In this document: in pieces, positions 34,975 through 63,953 of the stretch | Position numbering within the stretch: the stretch's first letter is position 1 | How the letters are laid out: the number at the start of each line of letters is the position of its first letter | From: Salibacter halophilus | GTDB lineage: Bacteria; Bacteroidota; Bacteroidia; Flavobacteriales_G; Salibacteraceae | Assembly (NCBI RefSeq): GCF_008806325.1 | Contig: NZ_WACR01000006.1 | Coordinates: 186,001-250,000 of the forward strand | DNA: 64,000 nucleotides | Direction of reading: 5' to 3' | Position numbers and translations under genes: made by a program | The notes under the pieces: generated by a model | Told to the model about the DNA's origin: nothing | The model's input: only the letters and a program-made list of their open reading frames with translations | Databases searched by the model: none

Positions 34975-35724
34975 TTATTTCACGCCCAAAACAACACCTT
35001 TTTCTACCATCTTTTCTATGAACTCGATAGCTTTTTGCTCTATTTCATGGGTGATTTCCATTCCGAGAGATTGCCCCATTTCATTTAGGGCATGGCGGAG
35101 GGTTTTTGGGCTCTGACCAAGAGTGTCCAATAAAATAGCTGTAAAACCTGTCAGGTTCATAAATTTCACCAAATGGCTATCTAATTCGCGATAGATGAGC
35201 AGGTAATAATGTCCTTTATTGGCTTCCATTTCACTCGCACTTCTCAGGTGTACCGGATATTGAAACTGAGCGATTTCTAAATAAGGGTTGAGTACCAACG
35301 CTTCGTCAAGGTCAGATCCAAATTCCTGAGTGTTGGGTAAGGCTACATCTTGCATACCGTGAACCTGAATCTCGAGCCATTCAAAAAGCAAAAGTTCTGG
35401 TAAATATGGGAGCCCAATGGATTCCTGGTAATTTGTTTTGTCAACAAACTCAACGAGCTCTGATGGCATTTTCCAAACCTCGTTTTCCTGGCATTTGTGA
35501 CGTTTGAAAAAATCAAAAACCAGGTCATCCCATCGTTCTTCACCCATGATTTCTTTCGCAATCGGGAATCCTTGATCTAAAACACCTTTTACGACATTGT
35601 AAACCAACCTGCGGTAGTGATGCAACCGGTCGTCACGTGCGCCTTCAATCTCTTTTTTAGAACCTGTGCGGGCGTACTCAGCGAGCTTGCTCTGTATGTC
35701 TTTTGTTTCATTCGTCAACGACAT
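34975..35724 (-). CDS. MNIO partner protein, DUF2063/HvfC-like
   Basis: A 249-residue protein in the position and size of HvfC, the partner that presents the precursor to the DUF692 oxidase. The N-terminal 100 residues fit the DUF2063 helical domain (LAEYARTGSKKEIEGARDDR, ELLLFEWLEIQVHG) and the C-terminal part has a winged-helix flavour (LGQSPKTLRHALNEMGQSL). It overlaps the oxidase gene by 17 bases, indicating coupling. Assignment rests mainly on context. Two motif sites (35109, 35310). Confidence 0.78.
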   Translation of the reverse strand: MSLTNETKDIQSKLAEYARTGSKKEIEGARDDRLHHYRRLVYNVVKGVLDQGFPIAKEIMGEERWDDLVFDFFKRHKCQENEVWKMPSELVEFVDKTNYQESIGLPYLPELLLFEWLEIQVHGMQDVALPNTQEFGSDLDEALVLNPYLEIAQFQYPVHLRSASEMEANKGHYYLLIYRELDSHLVKFMNLTGFTAILLDTLGQSPKTLRHALNEMGQSLGMEITHEIEQKAIEFIEKMVEKGVVLGVK

Positions 35725-48976: not shown

Positions 48977-50542
48977 TTAAATGTTTTTAGCGTATTCAAT
49001 AATGTTTTGAGAATAACTATCAGAGTTGTACCATTTCTCAATTTCTTTAATTATTAGCCTACCTGATGAGTCAGGGATTCTTGCAATACATGTAGCTCTA
49101 TTGCCAAATTCGTTAAATGAGCTTCCAATAAACCAGACTTTCTCGTCTGTAATGATAAATCTATCATGAAGAATACTTTTACCTCTAAGTGAGTGTACCT
49201 CTATATCGCTAAATGGGTTGGAGTTGTATGTTTCTAATGTCTCGTTGATTTTTTGAACTTCTCCATTTATTTTCAGGATAGCTTCTTTACTATTAAGAAT
49301 GTTAATTTTAATACCCGTGTTTTTGATATGAAACGCATAATCAACAATATCTATACTTCTAAAATATGGATCACATAAATAGCAAGTATCCTCAGCTTTG
49401 TTAATGATTTTTCTTATTTCAGATTTAGCTTTTTCTCTTAGCTGAGCTTTTTCATTCTCACTTTTTGCTCCTGGGAAAAAAATAAATTCGCTACGGTTGG
49501 CTAATTCAATATGTTCTCTAGTTTTATCCGCATTTTTAAAATAATGCTCAGAGTTGAAGTTTTTTGTTTCACCAATCAAGAGGGGCTTATCTCTAGAAAA
49601 CTTTTCGATAACATATTTTTCACTCCCTTTTTCTGTTTCTTTATTGACTTGAAGGTCTGCTTGTTTCAGTGATATTCCTACTTTAATACTCTTTATAAAA
49701 GTTGATGGCCCCTGAAGAGCAATCAAGTTGTTGTCGCGATTATAAATCCTAAGTTCAAATGAATTTGGCTCGTGAGGGAGATTTATTAATCCTTCTTGGT
49801 CATTTATCTTAAAAGCTTTGTCTAAAGCTATCGCATCTCCATGCTTGTCGATAATTCTAAATGTTAATGGTTCAAAATGTTTTTTCCGTGTTAATATTTT
49901 ATAAAAAATGCCAATTGGATTAGTTGAAAGAGATAAGTTTATTTCTCTAAAGTATGGGTTTGGAGCTGAAAGATAAACGTTCCCTATATGTTCTCTCTTT
50001 TGAATAATATCAAAGCCCAGCCAGTCTATTGTTAATTGCTGTATCGCTTGTGTTTCTTTTGATGTCGTTAAAGAAATAAATTGATTTTCAGTTTTTCGTT
50101 CATTATCAATTTGGCACCATATTAATAATCCTGATTTCCTAACAGGAACTATTGAAGCTACACCTTTTTCTGAGTAATAGTTAGAAGTGAAAACTAATGG
50201 GTATTCTCCAGATGGTTCTTTTATAAACGATTTATTAAAGAAGGATATTTCTTTCCCATCAATTTCAAAATTATTAATTGGGTTACTAAATACATTAAGG
50301 GCTCTATCAACTGATGAAAACTCATCAATAGCAAGGTAGAATGAATAACTATCTAAACCAGACTGTTTAGTTCTGACACAATTATCTTTCCATTTATTAT
50401 TAGGGATATTATAAGGATATTCGTCATCAGTCTGTAATTCTATAACCGAAAATAAATGGTACCATTTTTTAGTTAGCTTGTCTTGAGCTAACAAAGTTGT
50501 TCGAAAGGCTTTTTTGTAGTGCGTTTTAAGTTTTTGTATCAA
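48977..50542 (-). CDS. Large protein with C-terminal phospholipase-D-like nuclease domain
   Basis: A 521-residue protein. The first 330 residues are an unrecognised domain with beta-rich parts (I suspect, but cannot confirm, the VPA1262-type N-terminal family). The last 150 residues are a single PLD-like domain: DTCYLCDPYFRSIDIVDYA, then LHDRFIITDEKVWFIGSS near 455-472, an HxR variant of HxKxxxxD. A single PLD motif implies dimerisation for activity. Only a TTG start (50542) is available in frame. It is the first gene of the three-gene operon; AT-rich. Confidence 0.72.
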   Translation of the reverse strand: MIQKLKTHYKKAFRTTLLAQDKLTKKWYHLFSVIELQTDDEYPYNIPNNKWKDNCVRTKQSGLDSYSFYLAIDEFSSVDRALNVFSNPINNFEIDGKEISFFNKSFIKEPSGEYPLVFTSNYYSEKGVASIVPVRKSGLLIWCQIDNERKTENQFISLTTSKETQAIQQLTIDWLGFDIIQKREHIGNVYLSAPNPYFREINLSLSTNPIGIFYKILTRKKHFEPLTFRIIDKHGDAIALDKAFKINDQEGLINLPHEPNSFELRIYNRDNNLIALQGPSTFIKSIKVGISLKQADLQVNKETEKGSEKYVIEKFSRDKPLLIGETKNFNSEHYFKNADKTREHIELANRSEFIFFPGAKSENEKAQLREKAKSEIRKIINKAEDTCYLCDPYFRSIDIVDYAFHIKNTGIKINILNSKEAILKINGEVQKINETLETYNSNPFSDIEVHSLRGKSILHDRFIITDEKVWFIGSSFNEFGNRATCIARIPDSSGRLIIKEIEKWYNSDSYSQNIIEYAKNI

Positions 50543-56977: not shown

Positions 56978-57123
56978 AGAGGGGGTGTATCAAAACCGGA
57001 AATCAAAAGATTTTCGGTTTTAAAAGGCTGTCCTTTAAAGCATTAATACTCGAAAGAATTAGGTTGCTACGTTTTAGTCAACTTTTTTCCAAATTATTCA
57101 ACGCCTTTTGATACACCCCCTTC
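56978..57123. mobile_element. MITE-like element with terminal inverted repeats between two tRNA genes
   Basis: GGGGGTGTATCAAAA (56981-56995) and TTTTGATACACCCCC (57106-57120) are perfect inverted repeats, extended by AAGA/TTCT. Inside the left end is a second hairpin (AAACCGGAAATC ... GATTTTCGGTTT). The 140-bp unit has no ORF and no obvious target duplication. Confidence 0.6.
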
Positions 57124-57132
57124 TTCTTTCAA

Positions 57133-57204
57133 GCCTCCGTAGTTCAAGGGATAGAATAGGAGTTTCCTAAACTCTAGATCCAGGTTCGAGTCCTGGCGGA
57201 GGTA
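57133..57204 (+). tRNA. tRNA-Arg (CCT)
   Basis: A 72-nt cloverleaf with acceptor GCCTCCG/CGGAGGT, anticodon stem GGAGT/ACTCT with loop TTCCTAA (anticodon CCT, reading AGG) and T-loop GGTTCGAGTCC. No encoded CCA. Confidence 0.93.
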
Positions 57205-57250
57205 CTTTTTATCTCAATACTTTTCCAAAAAGTACTTACCTGAACAATTA

Positions 57251-57277
57251 TATATTTGAGTTCATTCAAAACTCAAA
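57251..57277 (+). promoter_or_regulatory. -7 element and overlapping inverted repeat before the small secreted protein
   Basis: TATATTTG (57251-57258) matches TAnnTTTG. A perfect 8-bp inverted repeat, TTTGAGTT (57255-57262) and AACTCAAA (57270-57277), overlaps it and ends just before ATG 57282; it could be an operator or leader hairpin. Confidence 0.5.
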
Positions 57278-57281
57278 TACC

Positions 57282-57650
57282 ATGAAAAAACTGAAAACAC
57301 TCTTAATTGTAGGAATTTTGCTCTTTGTTGGAAAAACGATGACCGCGCAAACTATTGACGGGAAGCCAATTGATGAAATCGATGCGCATTACGTAGTAAT
57401 TAAAGGAGCAACAAAAGCGCTAAGTCCAAATTTTAATATTCAGATCCTAATCGGTCAGGCCCCGGAGTTTTTAAAACCTTCAAAGGAAACGGAAGTAAAA
57501 GATGAAAACGGCAAAGAGATCGAGTTTAACTCCATCACAAACGCGTTGAACTTTATGGCTGAACACGGTTACAGGTTGGTGGATGCTTATGCAGCATCAA
57601 AAGATGGATCCAGAACTGTTCATCATTACATCCTCTCAAAAAAAGAGTAA
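57282..57650 (+). CDS. Small secreted protein, DUF4177-like
   Basis: A 122-residue protein with a signal peptide (TLLIVGILLFVGKTMTAQ). The C-terminal half (NALNFMAEHGYRLVDAYAA ... HHYILSKKE) has the form of the small DUF4177-like fold, where a YRLV helix precedes a strand. Function unknown. It lies between the tRNA pair and the reverse-transcriptase island. Confidence 0.75.
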   Translation: MKKLKTLLIVGILLFVGKTMTAQTIDGKPIDEIDAHYVVIKGATKALSPNFNIQILIGQAPEFLKPSKETEVKDENGKEIEFNSITNALNFMAEHGYRLVDAYAASKDGSRTVHHYILSKKE

Positions 57651-57657
57651 CAGTTCA

Positions 57658-57760
57658 AACCTGACAGGTTCCCAAAGCATGTTAGGTTTTTTTAATAAAC
57701 CAACCGGGACCGCCCGTTCAAGGGGTATTCACGGTTGTGGGTCTAAGCCCAGTGAACCGC
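57658..57760. other. Palindromes and hairpins upstream of the RT island
   Basis: AACCTGACAGGTT (57658-57670) is a palindromic terminator-like unit near TTAGGTTTTTTT, followed by a GC-richer hairpin with CGGTT/AACCG and GGG/CCC arms (about 57730-57760). No gene was seen between 57651 and the ncRNA. Confidence 0.4.
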
Positions 57761-57874
57761 TATTATTATTAGGACTTTAATATTAAAATAAAAAACTTGC
57801 TTTGAATATTAAGAACTAATGACGGATGAATAAAGTTTTGATAAAGAGGTGTTTTAAATGTGTGTAGAAATGTG

Positions 57875-57882
57875 TACATTTG
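57875..57882 (+). promoter_or_regulatory. -7 element of the RT-associated ncRNA
   Basis: TACATTTG matches TAnnTTTG exactly and predicts transcription starting near 57889, at the first base-paired region of the ncRNA. Confidence 0.55.
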
Positions 57883-57888
57883 TAGTAC

Positions 57889-58165
57889 TATCACAATTGG
57901 GTGATAGGGATATTGTTTAAGTCTTCGGGCTCGAATAATAGTACATCGATTAATCGCTGCACAATTATTCTTATTAATGAGCAGAAGAATTGAATTAGTA
58001 TTAACATATACGGATTCATTTCAATATTGTTGATTAACAGCATTCAGTTTACTTATGTAGGCTGTTGATGTTCAGTTTTTACTGGATGGGAAGAAGGTCT
58101 TATTTGGCTTTCTATAAAGTGCAAAAGGGTTGATATAAGTTTATGCTGGCTTAACCCTTTTGCTT
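57889..58165 (+). ncRNA. Candidate structured ncRNA of the reverse-transcriptase system
   Basis: About 277 bases with no ORF but many stems: CTATCAC/GTGATAG (57888/57901), alternative GTACTAT/ATAGTAC (57885/57938), TTCG/CGAA (57924/57932), TTAACAGC/GCTGTTGA (58034/58061), a U-tetraloop stem TTCAGT/ACTGGA (58071/58081) and a final 11-bp stem GCAAAAGGGTT/AACCCTTTTGC (58121/58153). The last stem ends 14 bases before the RT start. A dense run of hairpins between a promoter and an RT gene is the layout of retron and DRT2/DRT9-type ncRNAs. The function is inferred. Confidence 0.6.
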
Positions 58166-58177
58166 TGCCGTTTCTTT

Positions 58178-59566
58178 ATGATGGATGAAACTTTTGATAA
58201 TTTATGGGAAGAATTTGTTAAAAAGGAGTTCTCTTCTTTAAAAAAGAGAAAGTATAAACATTTTGACTACCCAATAACTTTTTCTAAAAAGGTTTTTTCT
58301 AATTACAGTCTTTTTCGTGATCTCTTTACAGACAAGTTCAAACAAGCTTTTAAATCTAAACAGATTTTTGACAGAGGTTATTATCCATTTATTCATTATA
58401 TTAAATACTCACCTAAGTTTAGGAACAAGAAAGACGGTAGTAGAGTTAAGTCTTTTAAAAAAAGGCATATATATTATTCATCACATTTGGATTCAATAAG
58501 GTTAAGTTGGTTTGCCTTAATTCTAGGTTTTTGTTACGAACAAAAGTTGTCCAGAAGTAAATTCAGCAATTCTGTTAAGGCGTACAGAAAATTTGATGAT
58601 AAGTTAAATAATGTAGACTTTGCTATTGAAGCATTTCAAGAAATTGCAACCCGAGAAAATTGTGTTGCAGTGTGCCTTGATATATCAAAGTTTTTTGATA
58701 ATATACCTCATAAAAAATTAAAAAAGAAATGGTTGGAGGTTATTAATTACGAATTTTCACAATATGATGAATTACCACAAAATCAGTATACAGCATTTAA
58801 GGTCATGACTAATTTCCACTTTGTTGAAAAGGATGTGATTAATGATGTTTTTTACTATAAGAATAAGTTTGGAAGTGATAATTTAAAATATTGTAGTCAT
58901 AGTGACTTTAGAGATTTTGTTATTGGGACAGGAATGATTCAAAAAAACCATCTGCTTGAAAAACAAAAGGGGATTCCACAAGGTGCTCCAATTAGTGCAA
59001 TTCTATCTAATATTGTGATGATTGACTTTGATAAAAGTCTTTTCGAAAAAGCTGAAGAAGTTGGTGGCAAGTATTATAGATATAGTGATGATATATTATT
59101 GATAATTAATGAAAATGATAAGGAAAAAGTTAAATCATTTGTTAGTGAAAGAATAGAGGAGTTAGGATTTAAACTTAATGATAAGAAGGAGCGTGTGGTT
59201 CACTTTAAGAAGCTAAACTCTAAAGTAAAATCATTCTCTTCTGAAAATAAAGAAAGTAGACTTCAATATCTTGGATTAGAGTTTGATGGAGAAGATGTGT
59301 TTATTAGATCTTCAACCTTGTCAAGATATCATGGTAAGATGAAAAAAGGAATTAAGCGAGCTTATAGTATCTTTAAAGGAAAGAATGGAAAGGGCGATAA
59401 GATATTTAAGTCAAAATTACATAAGCTTTACACAAATTCAACAAGTAATAATTTTATAAAATATGCACACAATATTGTAAATAATGAGACAATATTAAAC
59501 ACAAATAAGGCAAAGAATCAAATCTCAGCAAGGTACAAGAAATTAAATGAGAGGATCAATGATTGA
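58178..59566 (+). CDS. Reverse transcriptase, candidate antiphage (UG/DRT-type)
   Basis: A 462-residue RT. Motif A is CLDISKFFDNI (about 165-175), motif B is GIPQGAPISAILSN (about 265), the catalytic YxDD box is YRYSDDILLI (about 300), and motif D/E ends RLQYLGLEFDG. There is no maturase X domain, HNH or endonuclease, so group II intron or non-LTR origin is unlikely. No retron VTG motif was found. ATG 58178 is preferred over TTG 58160, which lies in the ncRNA terminal hairpin. It is AT-rich, with no GGTCAGADCC sites. The exact UG class cannot be set by eye. Confidence 0.82.
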   Translation: MMDETFDNLWEEFVKKEFSSLKKRKYKHFDYPITFSKKVFSNYSLFRDLFTDKFKQAFKSKQIFDRGYYPFIHYIKYSPKFRNKKDGSRVKSFKKRHIYYSSHLDSIRLSWFALILGFCYEQKLSRSKFSNSVKAYRKFDDKLNNVDFAIEAFQEIATRENCVAVCLDISKFFDNIPHKKLKKKWLEVINYEFSQYDELPQNQYTAFKVMTNFHFVEKDVINDVFYYKNKFGSDNLKYCSHSDFRDFVIGTGMIQKNHLLEKQKGIPQGAPISAILSNIVMIDFDKSLFEKAEEVGGKYYRYSDDILLIINENDKEKVKSFVSERIEELGFKLNDKKERVVHFKKLNSKVKSFSSENKESRLQYLGLEFDGEDVFIRSSTLSRYHGKMKKGIKRAYSIFKGKNGKGDKIFKSKLHKLYTNSTSNNFIKYAHNIVNNETILNTNKAKNQISARYKKLNERIND

Positions 59567-59588
59567 AAGTTTTTTATTTTTCGTTCCC

Positions 59589-59605
59589 AAAACCTGTTAG
59601 GTTTT
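59589..59605. terminator. Palindromic terminator between RT and RM genes
   Basis: AAAACCTGTTAGGTTTT is a perfect palindrome with T-rich flank, lying between the RT stop and the convergent restriction enzyme. It resembles AACCTGACAGGTT on the other side of the RT island. Confidence 0.5.
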
Positions 59606-62600
59606 ATTTTCGCCCTCTTCAATCACGAAAACCTTATCAACTTCCTTCATCAACCTGTCAGTTTCTGAAAGCGCTACAATAATTTTTTGATAGTGGCGAA
59701 TATCGTCAATGGATAACTCACGGCCTTTGCGGTCTTTGAGCCATTTTTGGGCAGGTTGGTAGCCGCCTATGTGAAATTTCCACGCATTCAGCGGCACATT
59801 AGCAAAGTACTGGTTTTCATTGATGAAAACGTTTCCCTGTAAAATACCCTTGTCCTCATTTTTGGGAATTGGAACGTATTTTGGCTTTTCAACAATATTA
59901 TCACCGGGTTCAGGGTACTGTGTTATAAACTCTTCAACCTTTGGGCTTTCCAGCAAGTGAATTTGACGTATTTCACCACCCAGCTTTACCAACTGCCAAA
60001 ATACTTCTTTGTCTTTAGGGTACGGTACACGGGGGAAATCAATTTTGAGGAATTCCTCGTTTTTCTCGCGGTAAGTTGGGCTGTGCAATACAGCATAGAT
60101 GTAATCCAAAATGTCAATGGGGGCAAAGGTGTTTTCGGTAGTTTCTTTTTCGTGGGTAAAAGTCAAACCTAAATTCGCTGCAATTTGATTTACTATTTCA
60201 GTTTTTAGATTTGGTGTTCGACCCTGCACTGAGCTTGTCGAAGTGTCTGATTGTTCAATTATTTGTTGTCCGTTGGTTTCAGGATAAAGGTAAAGAGGAA
60301 AAACACTTCCACCGCCACGATAATAAATGTTTTGGTCTGAAATCGTGTTAGTGATAAAAGATAAATTCCATTGCATACTTCCAACGGCTTGACCTTGTCT
60401 GCCTGATATTAATGCAAAATTTTTACCTTCTCGCATATTTTTCATAATGCGATTTTGGCTATATGCAAAAAAACCTTTTGGCTTGCCTGTGAAATATGTC
60501 CATCTGTTATCAAATGGACGATATGTAATCATTTTGAAATTATTTTCACTGCAACTTTCAGTTAAATCTTCCTTTGCTTTAGACAAAATCCAATCTCTAC
60601 TATCGCTTTTTAAGTTATAGATTTTCCGTAATTCAGATTCTTCTAAATTTCTAAAGTTTTCAATTATTCCATTTAGGGTTGATTTTTCAAATTCGATAGT
60701 AACGCTGTCATTTTTTGACAAAACACCTAATGACGATTCTATAAACAACTCCTTTAATTGAAAACCTTTGTCATATTCGTTTTTATATTCAAAATCTTTA
60801 GGCATTAAAAAATATTCAGGAGCAGTTAGTTCAACTTCATTATAGGGTGTTGATTTCAGACTGTTTTCGGTTAGAAAATCATACTTTAAATCTCGTTTAC
60901 CATAAAGGTCATAATGATAAACTTTGCCTAATTCGTTTGGTTTTTTCTTTCCTGTTTTTATAAAAAAATTGATTGAAACACCTTGTTCAATGTCAAAAAC
61001 ATTAACGTCAGCACTGCCATCTGGGGCAGTTTCTTTTTTCTTAGCATTACCGTGTAAATCAATCGTATAAATTTTGTCATAAGTTTTAAGCAAATACCAA
61101 CGCATACCCCTGAAAGTTGGATTATCTAAGAACCCGTGTGGATTGATAAAAGCCAAAACACCACTTCCGTTTTTTTCTATGAAATGCTGACCGTATCGCA
61201 AAAACTTTACATAATCGTCATTGATGAATTTTGAATTTTGTTCTTTCAGTTTTTCTTTTCCTCCTGGTTCTTTTTTATAATCATCCATAAGGTTCATGAT
61301 CCACTTGCCTTTATTTTGGCTTTCACCGCTATATGGCGGATTACCAATCACACACATTACGGGTGTGTCTCGTTTAATAAAGTTAGCTTCGTTAGCCTCG
61401 TTACTTAATGCGTTTGCGAAAAGAGATCCTGTATCAGGGTGGTGTTCTTCGAGGCTGTTGGTGAGGTAAACGCGAAAGCGTTGTTCTTTTTGGGGCTTAA
61501 AGCCAGTGGCAGAGAGGAGCAAATCGAGCTTGAGGTGTGCCATGGCGTAAGAGGCCATTAAAATCTCAAACCCGTTGAGCCTCGGTATCAGGTGGTCATC
61601 AACGTATTTACTCCAAATGCCTTCCTGTCCTTTAAACCGGCTGTGTATTTGCCTGACAACTTCTGCCAAGAAAGTACCGGTTCCTGTTGCGGGGTCCAGG
61701 ATCTGAACTTTATGAACTTCTTTTTCAACTTCTTTGTAGCCCGTTTTTGAGCGCTTGTCGTCTGTGGCAACTTTGGTTTTGATTTTTGTTTTAGAGGTAT
61801 CGGCAAGTCCGTCTTTTAAGCCAAACTCATCTTTGAGAATGTCGTCAACTGCTCTTACGATGAAATTGACAACCGGCTCTGGCGTGTACCAAACACCGCG
61901 GCTTTTACGCAATTTGGGATCGTACTCTGCCAGGAAGGTTTCGTAAAAATGGATGATGGGATCGTTCATGGCCGTTTTTTTGCCAAAATCTTTGAGGAGA
62001 TCGGCAACGTTTGTGGCTCTGAATATGTCACTGAGATCATCTACGATCCAGGCTAAGCGATTATCGAGGTCATAACCGGCTATGTACTGGAAAAGTTTTC
62101 GCAAAAACGGGTTTGTTTGCGGGATGAGTGTAGCAGCTTCCTGCCGGCTAAAATCATCGAGGGTGGGGTCGTGGAGTCTTGCGGCAAACATGCCGTAAGC
62201 AATTGTTTGAGCATAGATATCGGCAAATCCTTTTGGTGTAATATCATAGATTAATATTTGCTTAAAGACGTTGTATTGTTCCTGCAATGAGGTGTTTGGA
62301 TTGAGTTCATCGGCAATATCGGCATCCAGTGTTTTTTCAAACACTTCTTTCATGAGGCGGGCTTTGTTTGCCATCATTTTACTCAGCTTTTGGGCAGATT
62401 TAATGGTTTGGCCGTATGTTGAGATGAAATCGGCAATGAGGTTTTCAAAATCATGAAACTCATTGAGGTTTGGTTCAATGTTTTTGCCCGTAACAGTTCC
62501 AATACTGATCTTTTTTACCAGTTCACCATTTCGGTAGAGCCAAAAATCGAGATAATTGGTGATGATGAGGTTATCGAGAGAAGAGCTGTAGCGGTTAAAT

Positions 62601-62851
62601 TGCTCTTTATAGGATTTGCTTCCCAGGTCAGCGCCAATATCTTTAGCTTCAATGTACCCGACCGGAATTTTTCCTTTAGTCAGAATGTAATCTGGTGCAC
62701 CGCACTCAATACGAGCCGGCTCGTTTGTTACAACTATTTCAGGAGCGAGTTTTTCCAGTAAAGTTTGCAGGTCTCCGCGATAAGAGTGTTCACGGGAAAT
62801 ACCAGTTTTGTAACGTTTGTCGATGCTGGTGATGTAGTCTGTTATTGTCAT
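59597..62851 (-). CDS. Single-chain restriction-methylation enzyme (type IIG/ISP-like, no helicase)
   Basis: A 1084-residue fused enzyme. The N-terminal PD-(D/E)xK nuclease shows GAPDYILTKGKIPVGYIEAK (about 50-70). The gamma-class N6-adenine methyltransferase has motif I ILDPATGTGTFLAEV (about 387) and motif IV GNPPYSG (about 502). The C-terminal 450 residues act as specificity domain (FAPIDILDYIYAVLHSPTYR). There is no helicase, unlike full type ISP enzymes, so it resembles type IIG. Self-contained restriction of foreign DNA is expected; the target sequence is unknown. It is downstream of a WYL regulator and contains none of the dispersed motif. Confidence 0.88.
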   Translation of the reverse strand: MTITDYITSIDKRYKTGISREHSYRGDLQTLLEKLAPEIVVTNEPARIECGAPDYILTKGKIPVGYIEAKDIGADLGSKSYKEQFNRYSSSLDNLIITNYLDFWLYRNGELVKKISIGTVTGKNIEPNLNEFHDFENLIADFISTYGQTIKSAQKLSKMMANKARLMKEVFEKTLDADIADELNPNTSLQEQYNVFKQILIYDITPKGFADIYAQTIAYGMFAARLHDPTLDDFSRQEAATLIPQTNPFLRKLFQYIAGYDLDNRLAWIVDDLSDIFRATNVADLLKDFGKKTAMNDPIIHFYETFLAEYDPKLRKSRGVWYTPEPVVNFIVRAVDDILKDEFGLKDGLADTSKTKIKTKVATDDKRSKTGYKEVEKEVHKVQILDPATGTGTFLAEVVRQIHSRFKGQEGIWSKYVDDHLIPRLNGFEILMASYAMAHLKLDLLLSATGFKPQKEQRFRVYLTNSLEEHHPDTGSLFANALSNEANEANFIKRDTPVMCVIGNPPYSGESQNKGKWIMNLMDDYKKEPGGKEKLKEQNSKFINDDYVKFLRYGQHFIEKNGSGVLAFINPHGFLDNPTFRGMRWYLLKTYDKIYTIDLHGNAKKKETAPDGSADVNVFDIEQGVSINFFIKTGKKKPNELGKVYHYDLYGKRDLKYDFLTENSLKSTPYNEVELTAPEYFLMPKDFEYKNEYDKGFQLKELFIESSLGVLSKNDSVTIEFEKSTLNGIIENFRNLEESELRKIYNLKSDSRDWILSKAKEDLTESCSENNFKMITYRPFDNRWTYFTGKPKGFFAYSQNRIMKNMREGKNFALISGRQGQAVGSMQWNLSFITNTISDQNIYYRGGGSVFPLYLYPETNGQQIIEQSDTSTSSVQGRTPNLKTEIVNQIAANLGLTFTHEKETTENTFAPIDILDYIYAVLHSPTYREKNEEFLKIDFPRVPYPKDKEVFWQLVKLGGEIRQIHLLESPKVEEFITQYPEPGDNIVEKPKYVPIPKNEDKGILQGNVFINENQYFANVPLNAWKFHIGGYQPAQKWLKDRKGRELSIDDIRHYQKIIVALSETDRLMKEVDKVFVIEEGENKT

Positions 62852-62948: not shown

Positions 62949-63088
62949 TTCCCTTCTCTAAGGGAATGGAAAAAGCCGCCTTTAATGTGGCAGTTTTTTT
63001 AATTTTTTTAGATTTGAAGTATAATGAGAATAATAATTGGTTAGGTTTTTTATTGATTTGAGGCCATCCTTTACGGGTGGCTTTTTTT
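62949..63088. terminator. Three consecutive hairpins between RM and WYL genes
   Basis: TTCCCTT/AAGGGAA (62949-62966), an imperfect GCC/GGC hairpin with T7 (about 62971-63000) and GCCATCC/GGGTGGC followed by TTTTTTT (63064-63088). The last two end in T tracts on the plus strand. The 235-bp gap has no gene. Confidence 0.55.
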
Positions 63089-63953
63089 ATAGATCATCTA
63101 AAAACTGAATAAACCCTTTGTCTCCCAAAACTTCAATGTCACTTTTTAAGCCCAAAACAAAGCGAGCCGGAGCTTTGTAACTTTGTACTTTCGTTTTAAA
63201 AAGGTATTGTTCAGAACCGAGAGGCTTGATAAAGGGGCTACTCAACGGATATTCTTCTTTGAGCAACAGGCGAGACCGCAGAGAAAGTTTTAACTCAACT
63301 TCCTTCTCCATTTTATTTCCCCTAAACCCAAAAACATCGGGCTTATAAAACTGATGCTGCTCTTCAAACTGAAAGTGCTTGTCGAGAATTTCAACTTCTG
63401 AGATGCGTTCTATGTTGAAAAACTTGTTCTTCTTAGTACCAACTTCAAACCCTGATATTGATTCGTAGTTATCTGTAAATTTTGTAGGCTCAATTAAACG
63501 GTTTGTTATTGATTGGCTGTTGGCTGAGTAATACTTTTTCAAAACAACCTGTTTCTCTTCAGCAATTGCCTGAGATAGTTTTTCAATAACCTTGCCCAGG
63601 TGAGCATTGAAAAGGTTTTCAGCGCCAACTTCCAGGTTTGACCAACTGCTGATTTTATTAAGCACACTATGAGCTAGTTTTGAACTTTTACCGGCAGTCT
63701 TCACCAGCTTTTTCAAAAAGTCAATTTCCTGTGGATTAAATTCAGGGGTATTTTCTTTATTCGGGATGAAAAATTTCCCGTACCGGTCCTTTTGCACATC
63801 AAAACCAAGTTGAATTAATAAGTCGATGTATCGATAAACTGAACGTTGGGAAATTTCTAATAGCGAAGATAAATTCCGGCAGCTCTTAGGAGGTTTAGCT
63901 TTGAGGTAATTAATCAATGAAAATACCCGGTATATGCGATTTTGATTAAACAA
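63087..63953 (-). CDS. HTH-WYL domain transcriptional regulator
   Basis: A 288-residue regulator. The N-terminal HTH (LSSLLEISQRSVYRYIDLLI, about 28-50) is followed by a WYL-type ligand domain (VVLKKYYSANSQSITNRLIE ... FEVGTKKNKFFNIERI) and a C-terminal extension. WYL regulators such as BrxR and CapW often control defence genes; here the restriction enzyme lies downstream on the same strand. A tighter link cannot be shown because hairpins intervene. Confidence 0.85.
   Translation of the reverse strand: MFNQNRIYRVFSLINYLKAKPPKSCRNLSSLLEISQRSVYRYIDLLIQLGFDVQKDRYGKFFIPNKENTPEFNPQEIDFLKKLVKTAGKSSKLAHSVLNKISSWSNLEVGAENLFNAHLGKVIEKLSQAIAEEKQVVLKKYYSANSQSITNRLIEPTKFTDNYESISGFEVGTKKNKFFNIERISEVEILDKHFQFEEQHQFYKPDVFGFRGNKMEKEVELKLSLRSRLLLKEEYPLSSPFIKPLGSEQYLFKTKVQSYKAPARFVLGLKSDIEVLGDKGFIQFLDDL

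Follow-up and report, generated by a model that had tools for sequence, protein, structure and literature searches.

A putative GUU-jump variant of the DRT2 antiphage system in Salibacter halophilus

Overall organization of the cassette

DRT2 systems create genes that are absent from the genome until reverse transcription takes place. A cassette found in a stretch of 64,000 nucleotides from Salibacter halophilus (contig NZ_WACR01000006.1, positions 186,001 to 250,000; hereafter the window), comprising a reverse transcriptase (RT) and a non-coding RNA (ncRNA) encoded ahead of it, is best interpreted as a two-part DRT2 antiphage system, a variant using a GUU jump, whose RNA hides an endless neo gene with a repeat of 38 codons. 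We estimate the probability of this interpretation at about 85%. The family and clade of the RT, the stems of the RNA, the position of GTT, the length of the repeat, and the open frame can be read from the sequence itself, whereas RNA-primed rolling-circle copying, phage-triggered synthesis of the second strand, toxicity of Neo, and abortive defence would follow by homology to DRT2 of Klebsiella pneumoniae (KpnDRT2). The new element appears to be a DRT2 clade in which GUU has taken over from ACA as the jump motif.

An earlier note on this DNA had proposed a candidate new DRT-type defence system. From that proposal, the defence role of the RT, its separate promoter, and the upstream ncRNA are retained here, but the new class is not, since the RT is a DRT2. 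The elements of the cassette are as follows.

57875–57882, + strand: exact Bacteroidota-type −7 box, TACATTTG, of the ncRNA–RT transcript, with a weak −33 element, TTTT, at 57852–57855
57888–57907, + strand: 5′ handle hairpin, CTATCAC-AATTGG-GTGATAG
57915–57917, + strand: GTT jump motif, copy 1 (ACA-1 position), within the 8-nt repeat at 57910–57917
57915–58028, + strand: inferred template for reverse transcription, 114 nt or 38 codons
57915–58028, − strand: cryptic neo repeat, with ATG at 58019–58017 after concatenation
58029–58031, + strand: GTT jump motif, copy 2 (ACA-2 position), within the 8-nt repeat at 58024–58031
58033–58069, + strand: 3′ scaffold hairpin, ATTAACAGC/GCTGTTGAT, from the minimum-energy fold only
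58121–58163, + strand: 3′ tower hairpin with an 11-bp stem
58163–58168, + strand: CTTTGC after the tower, the likely 3′ end of the ncRNA
58178/58181–59566, + strand: DRT2 reverse transcriptase

The reverse transcriptase

The RT, present in one copy in the 3.12-Mb genome that carries the window, is a compact protein of 461 residues (58181–59566, with ATG at 58178 or 58181 as the start). Its catalytic motifs are intact and include PQGAPIS, as well as the YSDD active site (residues 301–304), both as originally noted. In a PADLOC profile search the RT matched Drt2 with 371 bits (2e-111), followed by UG17 with 86 bits (6e-25). The score with NCBIfam NF041746 (Drt2) was 360.8 bits, slightly below the curated equivalog cut-off of 390 bits, and the runner-up family reached 85.8 bits. 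The top matches in a sequence search of the PDB were chains from cryo-EM structures of DRT2 (9c0i and others, 1e-58 to 2e-58), with group II intron RTs following at 1e-6. Prediction from seven aligned proteins, comprising that of the window and those of the related loci, gave a structure (pLDDT 78) that matched 9c0i with an E value of 9e-34 and a target-normalised TM score of 0.81 in a fold search, whereas the second match, DRT9, gave 9e-12 and 0.41. By profile, sequence, and fold, the RT belongs to DRT2 (UG2).

The statement that the RT is not that of a group II intron, a retron, or a diversity-generating retroelement also held, with the best profile matches lying elsewhere, in Drt2. A group II intron RT was rejected (maturase profile 85.8 bits, cut-off 300), as was a retron RT (St85 retron profile 69 bits, cut-off 235). 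An Rfam search of positions 57000–60000 yielded no intron or retron RNA family, tRNA being the only credible family in the region.

A tree built from 96 DRT2-like RTs groups the protein from the window with that of L015, a Bacteroidia metagenome-assembled genome (support 98). Both group with L017 (Aquimarina), L002, L019 (Sphingobacterium), L004, and L055, all of them from Bacteroidota, with an SH-aLRT of 99, and the canonical gamma DRT2 systems are placed elsewhere. Two further relatives, L113 and L144, came from a later profile search and stand outside this tree. Judged from its sequence, the RT is a member of a divergent Bacteroidota clade of DRT2. Its identity to the relatives in this clade is 31–41%, the closest being 41% identical. 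The 34 further genomes of the same family contained no relative of the RT at E ≤ 1e-30, and a scan of viral contigs with the single RT protein also returned none.

A new DRT class, apart from DRT2, DRT9, and DRT10, is extremely improbable. The modest identity within the clade and the NCBIfam score just under its cut-off would be compatible with such a class, but the profiles, the PDB sequence search, and the fold search all give DRT2 by a wide margin, and the layout of the RNA, described below, is that of DRT2 down to a spacing of 7 nt. A new class was therefore rejected on the placement of the RT.

The upstream RNA

The non-coding stretch ahead of the RT extends from ~57888 to 58170, about 280 nt, and starts with the 5′ handle. 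The handle is followed by an A+T-rich stretch, then by a second structured part, and finally by the 11-bp stem located just before the ATG, in which GCAAAAGGGTT (58121–58131) pairs with AACCCTTTTGC (58153–58163). The exact −7 box, the structured non-coding stretch, and this stem had all been pointed out in the earlier note and are found here as described there. In the clade, the −7 boxes of the ncRNA promoters match in 5/6 or 6/6 positions, lying in the relatives 3–16 nt upstream of the handle.

Both the handle and the tower are conserved in seven RNAs, those of the window, L015, L017, L002, L019, L113, and L144. All 49 cells of the handle are paired and each of its seven pairs shows a compensatory change; in the tower, 70/70 cells are paired over 10 pairs, nine of which show such changes, giving 16 of 17 pairs for the two stems together. 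However, the completeness of pairing is partly by construction because the stems were picked within each sequence, with arms set by hand in a script, since the MAFFT alignment of the 3′ scaffold missed the tower arms. A fair measure of conservation is thus the rate of a 10-bp stem next to TTTGC in shuffled sequences rather than the pairing counts. Dinucleotide shuffles produce a stem of 10 bp or more adjoining TTTGC in 0.6% of cases for the window and in 0.2–0.6% across the set, whereas such a stem is present in 7/7 RNAs. The sequence following the tower is CTTTGC in six of the seven and CTTTAC in L015, resembling the TTTTGC-like sequence with which gamma DRT2 RNAs finish. As far as can be read from these features, the upstream RNA has the anatomy of DRT2, with a 5′ handle, a template whose jump motif lies 7 nt past the handle, and a 3′ tower ending in TTTGC.

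The jump motif

An exact 8-nt direct repeat, ATATTGTT, which the earlier note had not pointed out, occurs at 57910 and 58024 with a spacing of 114 nt. Between its copies, the minus strand has a frame free of stops. The first GTT within it lies exactly 7 nt past the handle, in the place of ACA-1, and the canonical ACA-1/ACA-2 microhomology of KpnDRT2 is absent, which makes the system a variant outside the canonical KpnDRT2 subgroup. The template does contain ACA, but ACA was rejected as the jump motif since no pair of its copies fits the 7-nt spacing.

DRT2 loci were scanned from the handle, taken as a maximal stem with 7 bp or more, for a motif at an offset of 0–20 that recurs at a multiple of three (90–156 nt) with an open complement. 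ACA stands at offset 7 past the last pair of the handle in 19 loci (0–2 at other offsets), and GTT stands there in six, those of the window, L002, L015, L017, L019, and L021 (0–3 at other offsets). In the clade, the GTT at this place returns 114–138 nt downstream, each time at a multiple of three. Shuffling of the upstream sequences of five Bacteroidota members reproduced the GTT rule in 0–0.07% of cases, and the same rule with any trinucleotide in 0.5–1.2%. Because GTT at offset 7 recurs across loci and does so seldom in shuffles, GTT is taken, on sequence grounds, to replace ACA-1 in this clade.

The DRT2 of Geomonas propionica (L021) has a 7-nt microhomology, GTTAACA, exactly 7 nt past its handle, and an open template of 132 nt; this locus lies outside Bacteroidota, and the GTT motif therefore reaches beyond that phylum. 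Other trinucleotides are found at the same offset, with open complements, in L065 (a Planctomycetaceae metagenome-assembled genome; TGTCTTT), L005 (TTTCATTA or CATTA), and L006 (TAATTT). With different motifs at this place in such divergent DRT2s, the jump motif may have changed repeatedly across DRT2.

The hidden neo frame

When the complement of the window template is joined to itself, one frame runs without a stop through the junction, with a repeat of 38 residues that reads MNPYMLILIQFFCSLIRIIVQRLIDVLLFEPEDLNNIE and continues in frame into the next repeat. Concatenation would thus yield a repeated Neo-like protein. The templates between the GTT-containing repeats measure 114 nt in the window, 129 in L015, 138 in L017, 114 in L002, 138 in L019, and 144 in both L113 and L144. 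In all seven the complement is open, the length is divisible by three, and the product is 53–61% hydrophobic; GTT supplies the codon AAC (Asn) at each junction, with the phase shared by all, and an ATG in an [E/N]-M context follows shortly after. Between the congeneric RNAs L113 and L144, 9 of 48 codons differ, and no stop arises.

An 8-nt repeat, a length divisible by three, and an open complement coincide in 1.4% of shuffles of the window ncRNA, a rate that is not enough by itself, and it is the relatives that make the case for neo. For each template, the chance that a shuffled version has one or more open frames is 4–24%; multiplied over six lineages, these chances give 5e-7, a value that flatters the case for neo because the boundaries were chosen with the result known.

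By analogy with the Klebsiella system, the RT would bind the ncRNA and copy the template starting at its 3′ side. The end of the nascent cDNA, AAC, copied from the first GUU, would pair again with the second GUU and so begin the next round (jump motif here AUAUUGUU). Repeated rounds would amount to rolling-circle reverse transcription and produce a concatemeric cDNA, which upon infection would become double-stranded and be transcribed and translated. The predicted product is a Neo protein, long, repetitive, and hydrophobic, by which the cell would be arrested.

The promoter for such a transcript was less evident. No good promoter spanning the junction, of either the sigma-70 or the Bacteroidota type, was recognised in the window concatemer. 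In the concatemer of L017, a promoter of the Bacteroidota type, TTTG-N20-TAACTTTG, has its boxes united only by the junction. The concatemer of L015 contains a promoter of this type too, TTTG-N19-TAACTTTG, but this pair is also intact on the L015 genome. Promoters of the L017 and L015 types each occur in ~0.5–1.1% of shuffles. In the L019 concatemer, a 6/6 −7 box is accompanied by a weak −33 element. It is conceivable, at rather long odds, that the Neo concatemer of the window is transcribed by a phage or phage-modified RNA polymerase rather than from a host promoter that the junction restores; if so, phage transcription itself would be the trigger of the toxin.

Several observations weigh against a DRT2 with a GUU jump and a hidden neo gene, besides the Drt2 score below the NCBIfam cut-off. 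In L113 and L144, GTT is positioned 17–18 nt past the handle. The rule of GTT at offset 7 was noticed in the clade before it was tested, and only L021 and the ACA set are independent of the sequences that suggested it. A boundary-blind test, based on the longest open run on the complement, is weak, with p = 0.24 for the window and 0.004 for six lineages combined; the same test also misses the canonical gamma systems. The window template is open in a forward frame too, no convincing neo was found in the clade members L111/L004 and L055, and no −7 box in the window concatemer reaches 6/6, the best one matching in 5/6 positions and not located at the junction.

Alternatively, the DRT2 RT and ncRNA may make concatemeric cDNA from this template while the DNA as such, or some product other than Neo, acts as the effector, the minus-strand frame being incidental in an A+T-rich template. 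Tang et al. proposed alternative mechanisms in divergent DRT2 clades, and both the rate of open frames in shuffled templates and the lack of a clear promoter in the window concatemer are in line with such an effector. On the other hand, all seven RNAs are open, divisible by three, and share the junction phase and the context of the ATG, and in two relatives the concatemer includes a full TTTG-N19/20-TAACTTTG promoter. We consider an effector other than Neo unlikely. It is very unlikely that the locus is a decayed or inactive DRT2, as might be supposed from the lack of close RT relatives in the family and from the unrecognisable neo promoter; the RT with its catalytic motifs, the handle, the tower, CTTTGC, the ncRNA promoter, the 8-nt repeat, and the neo frame are all intact.

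Comparison with known systems

In KpnDRT2 (PDB 9c0i), Neo stops growth (Tang et al. 2024, PMC11100668; Wilkinson et al. 2024, PMC12039810). The window system shares with it the family and fold of the RT (~33% identical), an ncRNA of ~280 nt ahead of the RT under a single promoter, a 5′ handle, a template with short terminal repeats, a 3′ tower followed by a TTTGC-type end, and a stop-free complement frame with a repeat length divisible by three. It differs in the jump motif, which is ACA in KpnDRT2 and GUU in the window, in the repeat (40 residues in KpnDRT2, 38 in the window), and in the ncRNA promoter, which is of the Bacteroidota type, as well as in having no recognisable promoter across the repeat junction. 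In the passages considered from a 2025 structural paper on DRT2 (PMC12596737), the jump motifs of other clades are not mentioned.

The Bacteroidota relatives L015, L017, L019, L002, and L113/L144 share with the window the clade, GTT, the handle, and the tower, as well as the Asn at the Neo junction and the [E/N]-M start. They differ in the length of the repeats (114–144 nt), in the concatemer promoters of L017 and L015, and in the GTT position of L113/L144. DRT9 (UG28) and DRT10 (UG17) likewise have class 2 UG RTs, ncRNA templates, and repetitive cDNA. However, DRT9 is hexameric and protein-primed and copies a poly-U tract into poly-dA, and DRT10 makes protein-primed short tandem repeats; the similarity of the window RT to the two is far lower (77 and 86 bits, respectively, against 371 bits for Drt2 in PADLOC).

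Genomic neighborhood

Upstream of the cassette are genes for tRNA-Ala and tRNA-Arg. On the other side, the restriction enzyme and the WYL regulator that had been reported beside the RT are indeed present.

59597–62851: type IIG restriction enzyme-methylase, downstream of the RT and facing it (PADLOC, 1210 bits)
63087–63953: WYL/HTH regulator, beyond the type IIG gene

In L019 (1551–3597), a CBASS-like pair, made up of an oligonucleotide cyclase and a TIR-STING effector, directly precedes DRT2, and a HEPN/nucleotidyltransferase gene lies on the other side of DRT2. The scanned neighbours in L017 and L015 gave no match to a defence family. The system is therefore regarded as a stand-alone cassette of RT and ncRNA.

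The cassette is flanked at 57668–57693 and 59583–59608 by the two copies of a 26-nt direct repeat, GTTCCCAAAnCnnGTTAGGTTTT, which is imperfect (88%) and whose core occurs without mismatch only at those two sites in the whole genome. This repeat could be an insertion footprint or a shared terminator sequence. No syntenic empty site was found in congeners, in which the neighbourhood is not syntenic. The palindrome AAACCTGNNAGGTTT, allowing at most one mismatch, is present at 35144–35158, 57657–57671, and 59590–59604 (0.07 matches expected), and these copies are likely terminator-like elements. About 7 kb upstream of the RT, 48977–50542 encodes a 521-residue protein with a PLD-like nuclease domain and a weak match to the PADLOC candidate PDC-S05 (2e-11).

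Implications

The annotation of Neo is challenging in divergent DRT2 clades, for which alternative mechanisms have been suggested (Tang et al., PMC11100668). For one such clade, the GUU variant offers an answer to this difficulty. A divergent DRT2 clade would retain the mechanism and the geometry, with 7 nt from the handle to the motif, while the trinucleotide changes from ACA to GUU, and the contrast between the two separates the fixed parts of the DRT2 RNA from the changeable ones. The handle plus 7 nt is a simple rule by which hidden neo genes may be found in further clades. The predictions, a GUU jump and repeats of 38 residues, are testable in Bacteroidota, hosts with a different promoter code.
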